DNA of 34,917 nt from Gammaproteobacteria bacterium. GTDB lineage: Bacteria > Pseudomonadota > Gammaproteobacteria > SZUA-152. Below are positions 1,108 to 4,283 of this stretch, piece by piece; position 1 is the stretch's first letter, and the number at the start of each line of letters is the position of its first letter. Location of the stretch: the NCBI GenBank assembly GCA_011051685.1, contig DRKQ01000123.1:1-34917 (forward strand). The letters run 5' to 3'. Under the pieces are notes generated by a model that saw only the letters and a list, made by a program, of their open reading frames with translations, was not told the origin of the DNA and ran no database searches. The position numbers were made by a program, and so were the translations under genes.

Positions 1108-1438
1108 CGTCTAACCATAAATAGAAATCCAGGTCCTCGTAAAACTCCAGTGATTCGCTGTCCTCCAGCAGGGCCAGGTCTTCCAGCGGCAATTGCTCGT
1201 TGACGCCCGGCTGAGGCGCGGCCAGCCATAACGACACGCTGAACACCGCCACCGTGGCCGCGGCGGCCAGGCCACCCATGGGCAGCAGCCAGGCCGGACG
1301 CCGCTGGCGGGCCTCAAGTGCGGTGTAACGCGCCTGGCGCAGCTCGCGCAGGGTGGCATCGTCCAGGGTCTGCGCCGAGCGCTCCAGGGTGGCCTGCACC
1401 TGCTGCAAAAACGGGTCTTTGTGTTCCGGCTTGCTCAC
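1085..1438 (-). CDS. DUF3619-type single-pass membrane protein, putative anti-sigma partner
   Basis: This 117-residue protein has a cytoplasmic N-terminus with a predicted helix (LRELRQARYTALEARQ). One transmembrane helix (about residues 50-73, LLPMGGLAAAATVAVFSVSL) follows, then an acidic periplasmic tail of about 40 residues (EDLALLEDSESLEFYEDLDF). Size and layout fit DUF3619, found next to ECF sigma factors. An anti-sigma role is plausible from position and topology but is not shown by any motif. The start is GTG at 1438, overlapping the sigma-factor stop by one base (TAGTG), with a GGAG ribosome-binding site 8 bases upstream. It is therefore almost certainly co-translated with the sigma factor. 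Confidence 0.7.
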   Translation of the reverse strand: MSKPEHKDPFLQQVQATLERSAQTLDDATLRELRQARYTALEARQRRPAWLLPMGGLAAAATVAVFSVSLWLAAPQPGVNEQLPLEDLALLEDSESLEFYEDLDFYLWLDDEQQDAG

Positions 1439-2091
1439 TACCGTATCTCCTGCTGTTCGTTCATCTGCCAGTAATCCTGCAACTCCGCCCGCAGCGCCTT
1501 GAGGGCGCGGGAAAAATGGGTCTTCACGCTGCCTTCACCGCAGCCCATGGCCTGGGCGGTGTCACGCACACTGAGCCCTTCCCACTGGCGCAGCAAAAAC
1601 ACCTGTTGCTGGCGCAGCGGCAATCTGTGCAGGGCGGCATCCAGCTGGGCCATGGCCTGTTGCTGCTGCAGCTGCACGCCGGGCTCGGGATCGGCGCTGG
1701 CCACGCGGGCCTCGAGGGGATCCTCCCCCGGCTCCGCCTCGCCATCCTGGGCCGGCTTGCCGCCCAGCCACTGGCGGAAGCGGTTGCGCACCGCATTGCG
1801 CCGGTACCAGTCGCGGATCACGCTCTGGGTGATGCGCTGAAACAGCGGCCCCCACTCCTCGGCATCGCGGTCGGCGTAGCGCCGGGCCAGGCGCAGCATG
1901 GCGTCCTGCACGATATCCAGCGCGTCCTCGTGATTGCTGGTGGCGATCAACGCCAGGCGATAGGCCCGCCGCTCCACGCTGGCGAGGAAGTGATCCAATG
2001 CGGCCGAATTGTCCAGCGCTGTTCTCCTGCATGCGGTGTATCCTGTGTGCTCGATTCTGGCCAGCCCGGGGCCGCTTTGTCCAGTGGGCAT
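1438..2091 (-). CDS. ECF-type RNA polymerase sigma factor
   Basis: The product carries a sigma region 2 (RLALIATSNHEDALDIVQDA, then FQRITQSVIRDWYRR) and a region 4 helix-turn-helix (LPLRQQQVFLLRQWEGLSV followed by DTAQAMGCGEGSVKTHFSRA). It lacks regions 1 and 3, as expected for the extracytoplasmic-function group. The linker between the two regions is long and rich in Gly, Pro and Glu. The true start is uncertain. The first ATG is at 2091, with GGGGA 8-9 bases upstream. A CTG at 2016 has a better AGGAG site 7 bases upstream and would give a 192-residue protein of usual ECF length. The residues before it (about 25) do not resemble sigma factors. It heads the operon running down to position 1, which it presumably controls. 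Confidence 0.85.
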   Translation of the reverse strand: MPTGQSGPGLARIEHTGYTACRRTALDNSAALDHFLASVERRAYRLALIATSNHEDALDIVQDAMLRLARRYADRDAEEWGPLFQRITQSVIRDWYRRNAVRNRFRQWLGGKPAQDGEAEPGEDPLEARVASADPEPGVQLQQQQAMAQLDAALHRLPLRQQQVFLLRQWEGLSVRDTAQAMGCGEGSVKTHFSRALKALRAELQDYWQMNEQQEIR

Positions 2092-2151
2092 GTGGAAAAG
2101 TCCCCAGTCTGTCAAATCCTTGCCCTGTTTAACGCATCACCGGCCAATCGG

Positions 2152-2179: not shown

Positions 2180-2214
2180 ACGCAGCGCCGAACCACCGTA
2201 TACCGAGGTTGATG

Positions 2215-2664
2215 ATGTCCACGAAAAAAACCAGTACCTCCTCCGAGCGCAAGCGTTTCGCCCAACGACTCAACGACGCGCTGGACAATATCCAGTTTCC
2301 CGCACTGGGAGCGGGACGCCGCAGCCGCCTATCGGAATTGCTTGAAGTGCCCGCAGAAGACGTCAATGACTGGCTGAGCGGCGACGCCTTTCCCCGCACC
2401 TCGGCGCTGGTAAAGCTCTCGGATCTCACCCAGACCCGCTCCAACTGGCTGCTCTCTGGCCAGGGGGAACCCTATCACAAGGGTAACAACCCCCGTGGAC
2501 CTGGCAAGACCCCGCCCGCCACGGGCAGCGGCAAACTCAGCAAGGAGGCCTTCGATTTGGGCCTGGCCTGGATGAAACTCCCCAGGCTACAGCGGGAAGC
2601 CATTGCCCGGGTGATCACGGAATTGCTGGATAGCAAGGCATCTTCGCAGCATAACCAGAAATAG
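2215..2664 (+). CDS. Cro/CI-like helix-turn-helix DNA-binding protein
   Basis: This is a 149-residue protein. Residues about 13-85 form a phage-repressor-like HTH domain: RFAQRLNDAL, then SRLSELLEVPAEDVNDWLSG as the helix-turn-helix, then FPRTSALVKLSDLTQTRSNW and LLSGQGEP. The LLSGQGEP ending is characteristic of CI-type N-terminal domains. A Gly/Pro linker leads to a short C-terminal helix pair (DLGLAWMKLPRLQREAIARV) seen in stand-alone regulators of this kind. There is no peptidase domain, so it is not a LexA-like self-cleaving repressor. Two adjacent ATGs occur; I chose 2215 because GAGG (2205-2208) sits 6 bases before it. It is divergent from the ECF operon and upstream of, but not facing, the sRNA pair. 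The regulatory target is unknown. Confidence 0.8.
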   Translation: MSTKKTSTSSERKRFAQRLNDALDNIQFPALGAGRRSRLSELLEVPAEDVNDWLSGDAFPRTSALVKLSDLTQTRSNWLLSGQGEPYHKGNNPRGPGKTPPATGSGKLSKEAFDLGLAWMKLPRLQREAIARVITELLDSKASSQHNQK

Positions 2665-2685: not shown

Positions 2686-2721
2686 AAAAAAAACCGCGGA
2701 GCCAAGGGGGGCAGCGCGGTT
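2686..2721 (-). terminator. Rho-independent terminator of sRNA copy B
   Basis: AACCGCG (2692-2698) pairs with CGCGGTT (2715-2721). The stem continues through a GA/AG internal loop into GCC/GGC and a C-rich apical loop. On the minus strand it is followed by a run of T residues (2686-2693). Confidence 0.8.
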
Positions 2722-2754
2722 GGGTTCAAACAAATAGGGGGTTTGTTTGGAAGT
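2686..2754 (-). ncRNA. Putative small RNA, copy B, about 69 nt with two C-rich-loop hairpins
   Basis: On the minus strand a transcript starting near 2754 would begin ACUUCCAA. It then folds a perfect 8-bp hairpin (arms 2727-2734 and 2742-2749) with the 7-base loop CCCCCUA. It ends in a rho-independent terminator: arms 2692-2698 and 2715-2721, an inner GCC/GGC stem with apical loop CCCCUU, and eight T residues (2686-2693). Promoter-like boxes precede it. The same layout occurs in copy A at 2938-3031. The C-rich loops are complementary to G-rich ribosome-binding sites, as in sX13-, NmsR- or alpha-r15-type sRNAs known from other bacteria; no homology to those is claimed. No expression evidence is available. 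Confidence 0.7.
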
Positions 2755-2760
2755 GGTGCT

Positions 2761-2789
2761 ACTGTAGCAAGCGTCCCTTCTCACAGGAA
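2761..2789 (-). promoter_or_regulatory. Promoter of putative sRNA copy B
   Basis: Reading on the minus strand, TTCCTG (2784-2789) is followed by a 17-base spacer and TACAGT (2761-2766). Immediately upstream the DNA is almost pure A/T, like an UP element. The identical -10 and a near-identical -35 (TTCCAG) with the same 17-base spacer occur before copy A. The -35 is a poor match to TTGACA, so an activator or an alternative sigma factor is possible. Confidence 0.55.
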
Positions 2790-2937
2790 ATGATATTTTT
2801 TTATATATCAATCCTTTTTTATTATATAAATAAAGAGCTTATGTACGAATAAATTCTTTTTCTGATGTCTGGCATTGACTGCCTTTTCAAGCAATTGACT
2901 ACGATCCACGCATTCCGGGTCTGGCCGCTTGACAGGC

Positions 2938-2969
2938 AAAAAAAAACCGCTACCAGGGGGAAGTAGCGG
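2938..2969 (-). terminator. Rho-independent terminator of sRNA copy A
   Basis: CCGCTAC (2947-2953) and GTAGCGG (2963-2969) form a perfect 7-bp stem with a 9-base loop. It is followed on the minus strand by nine T residues. It could also terminate the upstream hydrolase gene. Confidence 0.85.
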
Positions 2970-3031
2970 CTGGGCATTTCAAGGTTGCTGACAAGTCAGG
3001 GGGTAGGGCTTGTCTGGCAAGGCTTGGAAGT
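2938..3031 (-). ncRNA. Putative small RNA, copy A, about 94 nt with two C-rich-loop hairpins
   Basis: On the minus strand a transcript starting near 3031 also begins ACUUCCAA. It then folds a 6-bp hairpin (arms 2990-2995 and 3009-3014) whose 13-base loop contains ACCCCCUGA. An unstructured linker follows, then a perfect 7-bp terminator hairpin (arms 2947-2953 and 2963-2969, loop UUCCCCCUG) and nine T residues (2938-2946). It shares the 5' end, promoter boxes, C-rich loops and the downstream CAGGCAAAAAAAA junction with copy B, but the stem sequences differ. Conserved loops with changing stems suggest selection on structure and loop. It starts just past the stop of the alpha/beta hydrolase gene and could also appear as that gene's 3' UTR. 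Confidence 0.7.
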
Positions 3032-3037
3032 GAGTTC

Positions 3038-3066
3038 ACTGTATCTCAGACTGGATGTTACTGGAA
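3038..3066 (-). promoter_or_regulatory. Promoter of putative sRNA copy A
   Basis: Reading on the minus strand, TTCCAG (3061-3066), a 17-base spacer and TACAGT (3038-3043) are followed six bases later by the predicted start at 3031. An A/T-rich stretch (3067-3110), overlapping the end of the hydrolase gene, lies just upstream. The arrangement is the same as at copy B. Confidence 0.55.
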
Positions 3067-3077
3067 CTTATTTGTTT

Positions 3078-4133
3078 CTATTTCGTTATCTTTATTGAAG
3101 ATAATGGTTCTTTTCCACTGAACACCCACAGCAAGCCCAGGCAGAGCAACAAAACACTCCCCAGGCTGCCGCCTCCTCCCCCACCACCGTTCGTGCTGCC
3201 GCCATCCGTGGTGCCGCCGCCCCCCACTGTAGCCACCGGGCCCAGCAGGGTGCCATCCCAGGTGAGGTCGAAGACATTGCTGCAATCCGCGACGCCTAGA
3301 GGGGCATTGCAGGCCATCCAGTCGTTGACCACGGTTTCCAGGGGCTGGTCGTTGCCTCCCTTGTAACCCACCAGCTTGTGACAATCATTGGTGCTCAGGC
3401 CGGCAGCGCAGTCCATCATGACCTGGGTGTAGGAGCTGCCACCACTGATGCTGTAGCTGCTCACCCGTCCCAGCCGGCCGCTCTCGGCATCGGTGTCATC
3501 ATCCCCGAAGATGTCCAGCACCGGCATTCCCGTTTCTTTCAGGGTTGAATCATGATCTAGGGGATCCACCCCGCTGGTGTTGTACATGCCCACACCGATC
3601 AGGCCGATGATGGGCAGGCTGGGCGAGGCGATGCGCGCCGCAGCGGCGGTGGCAAACCGTGAACCCATGCTGAAGCCCGCCAGCACCACCTGGCTCACTC
3701 CCAGCCCCTGCAAATGATTGATGGCCGCCTGCACCCGGGCATAGGCTTCGGGGAAGGCGTAGGGAGAGGCGCTTTGGGCGTCCGCAAGATAGTCCGCAAA
3801 CTCGCGTGCCGTATCGTCTGTCGGGTCGGAGGAGGGATTTTCAATGGACAGGGTGGTGTACCCCGCCGCATTGAGGCTGTTGCGCAGCTCGTTGACCACT
3901 GGCCCGTCCGGGGACGATGTGCGCCCGTGCATGAGAATCACCCCCACGGAGGGACTGCCCGCGCCAACCAACAGGCAACCGTCAAAGGTTTCCGTGCTGC
4001 CGCCAAGGCCACTGGGATCCAGCACCACGTTGGCGCAACCGGGATTCAGCGTGTGGCTGGCCATGACCACAAAGGGCCACAGCATCAGACCCAGGACAAT
4101 AAGCCGGCACATTTCCTGAAAATATTTTTGCAT
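3078..4133 (-). CDS. Exported alpha/beta hydrolase (dienelactone-hydrolase-like) with GlyGly-CTERM-like tail
   Basis: This 351-residue protein begins with a signal peptide (LIVLGLMLWPFVVMA, cleaved near MAS-HTL). The alpha/beta-hydrolase core shows the oxyanion-hole strand VILMHGRTSSPDGP, the nucleophile elbow GFSMGSR and a probable acid strand VLDIFGDDDTD. The catalytic His is probably the one in DCHKLVGY. Several Cys residues suggest periplasmic or extracellular disulfides. The C-terminus has a long Gly/Thr/Ser linker with a run of seven Gly, then GSLGSVLLLCLGLLWVF as a membrane helix and a Lys-containing end. This resembles GlyGly-CTERM sorting signals processed by rhombosortase and type II secretion. 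The ATG at 4133 has AGGAGG 7 bases upstream. The substrate is unknown; a secreted esterase is likely. Confidence 0.8.
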   Translation of the reverse strand: MQKYFQEMCRLIVLGLMLWPFVVMASHTLNPGCANVVLDPSGLGGSTETFDGCLLVGAGSPSVGVILMHGRTSSPDGPVVNELRNSLNAAGYTTLSIENPSSDPTDDTAREFADYLADAQSASPYAFPEAYARVQAAINHLQGLGVSQVVLAGFSMGSRFATAAAARIASPSLPIIGLIGVGMYNTSGVDPLDHDSTLKETGMPVLDIFGDDDTDAESGRLGRVSSYSISGGSSYTQVMMDCAAGLSTNDCHKLVGYKGGNDQPLETVVNDWMACNAPLGVADCSNVFDLTWDGTLLGPVATVGGGGTTDGGSTNGGGGGGGSLGSVLLLCLGLLWVFSGKEPLSSIKITK

Positions 4134-4283
4134 CGTTCTGCCTCCTGCATGTTGAGGGCGCAAGGCCCAATCCGCGATATCGCCCCAATTGTAACCAAAT
4201 TTCGTTTTGCCTTGATGTGAATACACGCACAAGCGCAACGCTATGCGGGCAAAGATGGTTTCGCGGAGGGTTTAGTGGAAGGT

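Follow-up and report, generated by a model that had tools for sequence, protein, structure and literature searches.

Two minus-strand units lie close together in a gap between genes of a gammaproteobacterial contig, each of them a hairpin with a C-rich loop followed by a U-tailed terminator, and they raise the question of whether they are genes of regulatory RNAs and, if so, which messages those RNAs would bind. The window analyzed here is the whole 34,917-nucleotide stretch of the contig. In the explanation that we favor with moderate confidence, the units encode two sibling, separately transcribed, trans-acting small RNAs (sRNAs) that probably bind Hfq; the loop would pair with the ribosome-binding site of an OmcE-like cytochrome, block its translation, and probably act on other G-rich leaders.

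Both units described in the initial annotation, with their C-rich-loop hairpins and U-tailed terminators, are present in the window, and their features are collected in Table 1. Unit 1 has a folding energy of -22.1 kcal/mol (z -6.1) and unit 2 of -26.6 kcal/mol (z -4.25), and in each case 0/200 shuffles folded as well. Unit 1 folds into two hairpins, one being the terminator, and the loop of the unit 2 hairpin contains CCCTACCCCCTGA while that of its terminator contains TTCCCCCTG; the U tails number 8 in unit 1 and 9 in unit 2. The 5' end is common to the two, as had been stated, since ACTTCCAA opens both, and their likeness reaches beyond the 5' end and layout claimed earlier, extending upstream into the promoter regions. 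TACAGT sits 6 nt before the predicted start in both units, and the promoter-like element, start and terminator keep fixed spacing in relatives (spacing and sequence read by eye). A strict, generic sigma-70 scan called no promoter for either unit, and the case for a promoter is therefore made by the conserved layout and not by the generic scan. A simple terminator scan called the terminator of unit 2 alone (1 found vs 0.5 expected in shuffles). When run on the window, a covariance model built from unit-1-type sequences only picks up unit 2 at 32.7 bits (E 1.4e-4), from which we take the two units to be homologous.

Table 1. Predicted sRNA features and adjoining genes, in window coordinates.
Feature	Position	Strand	Remarks
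ECF sigma factor gene	1438..2115	-	NCBIfam NF006550, 225.6 bits
Small DNA-binding protein gene, Pfam Phage_CI_repr	2212..2664	+	Convergent with unit 1
sRNA unit 1 (type A)	2686..2754	-	~69 nt predicted transcript, +1 at 2754 to U-tail end
Unit 1 rho-independent terminator	2686..2721	-	8-T tail; folding and covariation; missed by simple terminator scan
Unit 1 5' hairpin	2727..2749	-	8-bp stem CAAACAAA/TTTGTTTG, loop with CCCCCTA
Unit 1 proposed seed AAACCCCCTAT	2734..2744	-	Perfect complement of OmcE-like cytochrome leader ATAGGGGGTTT
Unit 1 promoter-like element	2761..2789	-	TACAGT 2761-2766, 17-bp spacer, TTCCTG 2784-2789; AT-rich upstream to ~2815
sRNA unit 2 (type B sibling)	2938..3031	-	~94 nt predicted; recovered by unit-1 covariance model
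Unit 2 terminator	2938..2971	-	C-rich loop, 9-T tail; folding and simple terminator scan
Unit 2 C-rich-loop hairpin	2988..3016	-	Folding and type-B alignment
Unit 2 promoter-like element	3038..3066	-	TACAGT 3038-3043, 17-bp spacer, TTCCAG 3061-3066; AT-rich upstream to ~3090
DUF3530/alpha-beta hydrolase gene	3078..4238	-	Upstream of unit 2

For the distribution of the two types, we searched 57 genomes at the DNA level (12 from the window's genus, its own genome among them, 12 others of the family and 33 of the class), which gave matches in 14 of them, and then used the covariance model on the 24 family genomes, which are also all genomes of the order in the sample. The model matched 21 of the 24 at E<=0.001 and 17 at E<1e-10, the latter comprising 11 of the 12 genomes of the window's genus and six of the seven of a second genus. 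A weaker, divergent form, GACAAACATAACCCATGCCCCCA..TATGTTTGTC, is found in G012, G014, G016 and G018 (E 1.4e-5 to 4.4e-4) with near-identical terminators and a similar promoter layout upstream; two further weak matches in G014 (L059, L060) look like terminators and were set aside. The model found nothing in G003 (73% complete), G015 (84%) and G020 (93%, ~1070 contigs). From the loci read around type A, type B is present in at least six of the 12 same-genus genomes (G000, G002, G004, G006, G007, G009), and G010 and G011 hold two type-A copies side by side in place of the A and B pair. Homologous copies thus occur within one genome and often in tandem, as in sibling sRNAs, and the tandem pair is not the essential unit, with type A in 11/12 genomes of the genus and type B in at least 6/12. 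The host family is known here from draft genomes. Across the class (370 genomes), the model gave weak matches in 7 genomes outside the family (E 1.5e-4 to 8.8e-4), which we rejected as this RNA on inspection, as they mostly resemble ordinary terminators and, at L064 and L066, other C-rich multi-hairpin RNAs. The exact loop pattern returned 9 records from genome contigs, all gammaproteobacterial MAGs and one of them Ectothiorhodospiraceae, and 0 from viral contigs, and a phage origin is therefore not indicated.

The initial annotation suggested selection on an RNA, and the strong matches in 17/24 family genomes, the compensatory stem changes and the common promoter layout support this well; in the aligned type-A relatives the hairpin is kept and the stems covary. 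The type-A alignment holds 17 sequences, and its structure was written by hand from these same sequences; 95.7% of its 305 pair cells are standard. Seven pairs show two-sided changes, compared with a shuffle mean of 3.8 and 0/500 shuffles as high, and on four of five covariation measures 0/500 shuffles were as high; further pair types were not unusually numerous (87/500 as high). The 5' hairpin (8 pairs, 97.8% of cells paired) contributes two of the pairs with two-sided changes, and the terminator helix (10 pairs) five of those seen among relatives. When the partners are slid, 39-47% of cells still pair, but this comparison is biased toward a structure that was drawn from the very sequences it is scored on. 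The 5' part ACTTCCAAACAAACCCCCTATTTTGTTTGAACCC is near-identical in the type-A loci that we read and the terminator is variable; 17/17 aligned copies carry the loop CCCCC unchanged, and the bases flanking it are nearly invariant too. The type-B alignment (6 sequences) has no pair with two-sided changes. The earlier statement that the loops are kept is only approximately right, as the loop of unit 1 is nearly invariant among relatives but that of unit 2 varies in length and sequence. In summary, unit 1 is a conserved, covarying RNA and unit 2 is its faster-changing sibling. A promoter-like element at fixed spacing, terminators and covariation are the sequence-level marks of a stand-alone sRNA gene, and the transcript itself is a prediction.

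The pair had been described as no recognized family, which agrees with Rfam 15: there were 0 matches in the window at gathering thresholds, and a permissive search returned three weak ones only, to ErsA, a Tetrahymena snoRNA and psbNH, the best being ErsA at 17.4 bits vs 50. Judged by its sequence, this is a new sRNA family, absent from Rfam, of the known C-rich anti-Shine-Dalgarno kind. Other C-rich RNAs were met during the searches. All seven second-genus genomes carry a different C-rich multi-hairpin RNA (CTCCTCCTCCCTAGCGGGT..., with further C-rich loops; L197-L203 and L208, for example G017:C19:7645-7749), which scores 30.3-47.3 bits with the ErsA model RF01719 vs its cut-off of 50 and looks ErsA- or sX13-like, with a GAAACTTTT stretch upstream; a similar RNA in G008 scores 19.3 bits. 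C-rich hairpins before terminators (TTCCCCC and CCCTCCC loops) occur in other genomes at L064, L066 and L214 and may be sX13-like sRNAs; neither L064 nor L066 reaches the gathering threshold of any Rfam family.

The candidate target emerged from the complementarity of the loop. AUAGGGGGUUU, complementary to AAACCCCCUAU of unit 1, precedes the start codon of a tetraheme c-type cytochrome, whose leader reads GACCATAGGGGGTTTC immediately before the start. The pattern AGGGGGTTT placed 2-12 nt before an ATG gave 47 matches vs 26 for the reversed pattern in the 12 same-genus genomes. Thirty of the 47 came with loci and were read (four of the other 17 were looked at as well), and four of these 30 are the cytochrome, the recurrent gene start; among the remaining loci no frame exceeds 61 aa apart from those at L084/L094 (one place), L087 and L097 (98-360 aa, putative starts). 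The longer pattern ATAGGGGGTTT(N1-9)ATG gave 20 matches in 24 genomes vs 2 for its reverse. Fourteen of the 20 are the cytochrome start, in 12 genomes, with G000 contributing three of the 14, two of which may lie on contaminant contigs; one other match opens a frame of 399 aa in G018, and the last five open none longer than 50 aa. In G000, the window's own genome, contigs C59, C240 and C223 look like second-genus sequence and are possible contaminants, the listed contamination being 4.06%. The cytochrome, taken as the G010 protein, matches chain 7tfs_A of PDB 7TFS by phmmer (E=7.2e-19), a structure given as OmcE in PMC11936953, and four CxxCH motifs occur in all 16 loci of the cytochrome group that were read.

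We then searched the family with the cytochrome protein and read the leaders of 15 orthologues and of an additional G000 copy, located on contig C59. The leader ATAGGGGGTTT is exact in 12 of the 15, and G002, G007 and G009 have an inserted base beside the G-run; the sole invariant run upstream of the start in all 15 is GAGnCC-A-TA-GGGGG-TTTC. In an RNAduplex prediction for G000, leader AGAC also pairs with sRNA GUUU, so that most of the invariant block can pair there. Thirteen genomes hold both the sRNA and the cytochrome leader. Among genomes of which several are incomplete drafts, four (G004, G005, G006, G023) have unit 1 and no close OmcE-like gene was found in them, and two (G015, G020) have the leader and no sRNA match; the RNA therefore probably has other targets. 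The leaders of nonaheme cytochromes that we read (L157-L159) lack the conserved block. Some other multiheme cytochromes have G-rich leaders, such as CTAGGGGGCTAG in the second genus (by reading of the leaders). CTAGGGGGCTAG, with 7 bases complementary to CCCCCUA, stands before the start of a cytochrome at L226, L227, L229, L233 and L235 (second genus, and also G000 contig C223). As a separate observation, the OmcE-like gene of G009 (contig C19, L163:8265-18351) is followed by genes of a SurA-like prolyl isomerase and of cytochrome c7-type and NHL-repeat proteins, and further multiheme cytochromes lie on this contig, together a possible extracellular electron-transfer locus.

For leaders outside the family, the cytochrome matched 41 of 369 class-sample genomes at E<=1e-20 (4 of them family members), some via longer cytochromes only. 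Twenty-seven outside-family loci were fetched whatever the sRNA content of the genome, and 23 had a readable start, chosen by the best Shine-Dalgarno sequence, a choice that favors G-runs. The 11-mer occurs in 0/23 of these leaders, GGGGG in 11/23, and nine of the eleven bases in 3/23, namely the near-identical L277 and L278 (ATAGGGGGT) and L285 (AGGGGGTTT), whose pairing energies of -18.6 to -19.1 are as good as those of the lineage leaders. For one and the same sRNA segment, the mean energy is ~-11.4 kcal/mol for the 23 outside leaders vs -19.0 for the 15 lineage leaders, the outside value being an average of individual leader energies and the leader windows being -30 to +3 (outside) and -30 to +10 (lineage).

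Within one genome, we ranked the loop duplex energies of 357 crude ORF starts in a 400 kb G010 sample that was picked to include the target, and the cytochrome start ranked 1/357. But random A/U-flanked CCCCC 11-mers match the real loop somewhere in this sample in 34/295 cases, and full shuffles of the loop find some start as good in 15/300; the single-genome pairing energy is not significant. Once the calculation covers the full hairpin region, the cytochrome comes 4th of the 357 for one G010 copy of the RNA and 1st for the other, and several further leaders of this sample pair with similar strength. In 13 genomes, the shuffled sRNA region reaches the energy with its own leader in 0 to 34 of 1000 trials; in four genomes the CCCCC run was preserved during shuffling, and the matches then numbered 16 to 320 per 1000. 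By RNAcofold, G009 shows no net gain and G002 one of -1.0, and when partners were swapped in the divergent clade, pairing with the own partner was not clearly better. Support for the anti-Shine-Dalgarno role proposed earlier now comes from 11 conserved nucleotides that match a single, specific ribosome-binding site, but the role is not proven, and we regard the link between the sRNA and the cytochrome as a well-motivated hypothesis.

These results leave room for a reading in which the C-rich-loop sRNAs are real and serve as general anti-Shine-Dalgarno regulators of many G-rich leaders, with the OmcE-like match being one of many or coincidental. We consider this unlikely, though it explains several observations: the single-genome permutation control, the other G010 leaders and the three outside OmcE-like leaders of equal energy are in line with it, as are the four genomes that keep unit 1 where the cytochrome was not found, and the flanks of the 4G motifs in sX13 targets are described as not conserved (PMC3771888). 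Against it, the six leader bases flanking the G-run fit those around the C-run of the sRNA and are retained in 12/15 orthologues, whereas all six are present in 0/23 outside leaders, and the sRNA flanks themselves are nearly invariant.

Two further readings dispense with a new trans-acting RNA. The inverted repeat could be a DNA operator, for example for the adjacent CI-like protein, or an attenuator, and indeed, read as DNA, the 5' stem forms an almost perfect palindrome enclosing the C-run, with the CI-like gene adjoining in the window. We think this very improbable, as the promoter-like element, start and terminator keep their spacing, the terminator covaries, and the neighbors differ elsewhere. 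In the window, the pair is flanked by the CI-like and ECF sigma genes on one side vs the DUF3530 hydrolase, phosphoglycerate mutase and fused MFS/spermidine synthase genes on the other. Other members of the genus have similar neighbors (ECF sigma, mutase and CI-like genes, by eye only), with an ORF similar to the CI-like gene near the sRNAs in L010 and L011 and a matching ECF sigma gene beside the sRNA in L006, L007, L009 and L012 (both by eye). In G017, however, a spermidine-synthase-like gene precedes the RNA and a cytochrome c gene follows it, and in the divergent clade a Sel1-repeat gene lies near the RNA in 4/4 genomes and a FUR-family gene in 2/4. A role in cis is less likely because the neighbors change while the RNA stays. 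The remaining reading, that unit 1 is a divergent homologue of ErsA (Rfam Pseudomon-1, RF01719), is barely credible to us. The two share a C-rich hairpin and, in a weak end-to-end alignment (17.4 bits, E 0.79), a terminator U run followed by GCCTG, including the downstream TTTTGCCTG; yet this score is far under the 50-bit gathering cut-off, which was exceeded in 0/24 family genomes, and the best RF01719 matches, those in the seven second-genus genomes, are other loci with the different RNA described above. The ErsA gene is flanked by polA and engB and depends on sigma-22 (PMC8575079), whereas neither polA nor engB is among the neighbors examined here.

Two observations on context stand apart from these readings. 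At L166 and L168, in the divergent clade, the RNA lies between the FUR-family and Sel1-repeat genes, and a link to iron or metal is possible. A regulon search with the type-A promoter motif, allowing one mismatch in 12 genomes, gave 29 matches (10 of them sRNA loci) vs 13 for the reversed pattern, and no regulon emerged from the non-sRNA contexts, which were read by eye.

Returning to the sibling trans-acting sRNAs that we prefer, each RNA would be made from its own promoter and held by Hfq, whose gene is present in 24/24 family genomes. The loop would then pair with the G-rich ribosome-binding site of the cytochrome mRNA and block translation; other G-rich leaders would probably be targeted too, perhaps including those of other multiheme cytochromes, and unit 2 with its faster-changing loop likely serves overlapping or additional G-rich targets. 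Such blocking of ribosome binding is reported for sX13, acting on G-rich motifs of its targets (PMC3771888), and for NmsR, acting through anti-Shine-Dalgarno motifs (PMC5362039). sX13 of Xanthomonas represses mRNAs with G-rich motifs near the start and is reported to be Hfq-independent, and the motif UCCCCCU in its loop 3 resembles ACCCCCUA of the present RNA (PMC3771888). Compared by described features, the units share the C-rich apical loops with sX13, but unit 1 has two hairpins where sX13 has three stems with C-rich loops, and here the siblings are in tandem. NmsRA and NmsRB of Neisseria are likewise tandem siblings in one intergenic region, with anti-Shine-Dalgarno motifs and metabolic targets, but they have UC-rich motifs instead of CCCCC loops and three stem-loops, and belong to another lineage (PMC5362039). 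The proposed target is homologous to the OmcE filament protein of Geobacter (7TFS) and shares its 4 CxxCH motifs (PMC11936953 and PMC9473688), while the homologues here, known from their sequences, are longer, at 293-342 aa (complete frames) vs 232 in the PDB chain.

We found no open-licence paper on small-RNA control of cytochrome nanowires, and to our knowledge work on OmcE-type extracellular electron transfer has dealt mostly with transcription and with the proteins themselves. Here an sRNA family that is clearly conserved and stands outside Rfam gains a specific, testable candidate target, and this new family probably represses the OmcE-like cytochrome among other targets. If the pairing is true, it would connect OmcE-type extracellular electron transfer with regulation by small RNAs, and C-rich anti-Shine-Dalgarno RNAs would be a recurrent solution in another lineage, with a hint of target-specific flanking bases. 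More tentatively, a dedicated family-wide sRNA may control production of an extracellular filament of OmcE-like cytochrome, and probably of further multiheme cytochromes, through its invariant C-rich loop on their ribosome-binding sites; cytochrome nanowires would then be regulated post-transcriptionally by an sRNA.
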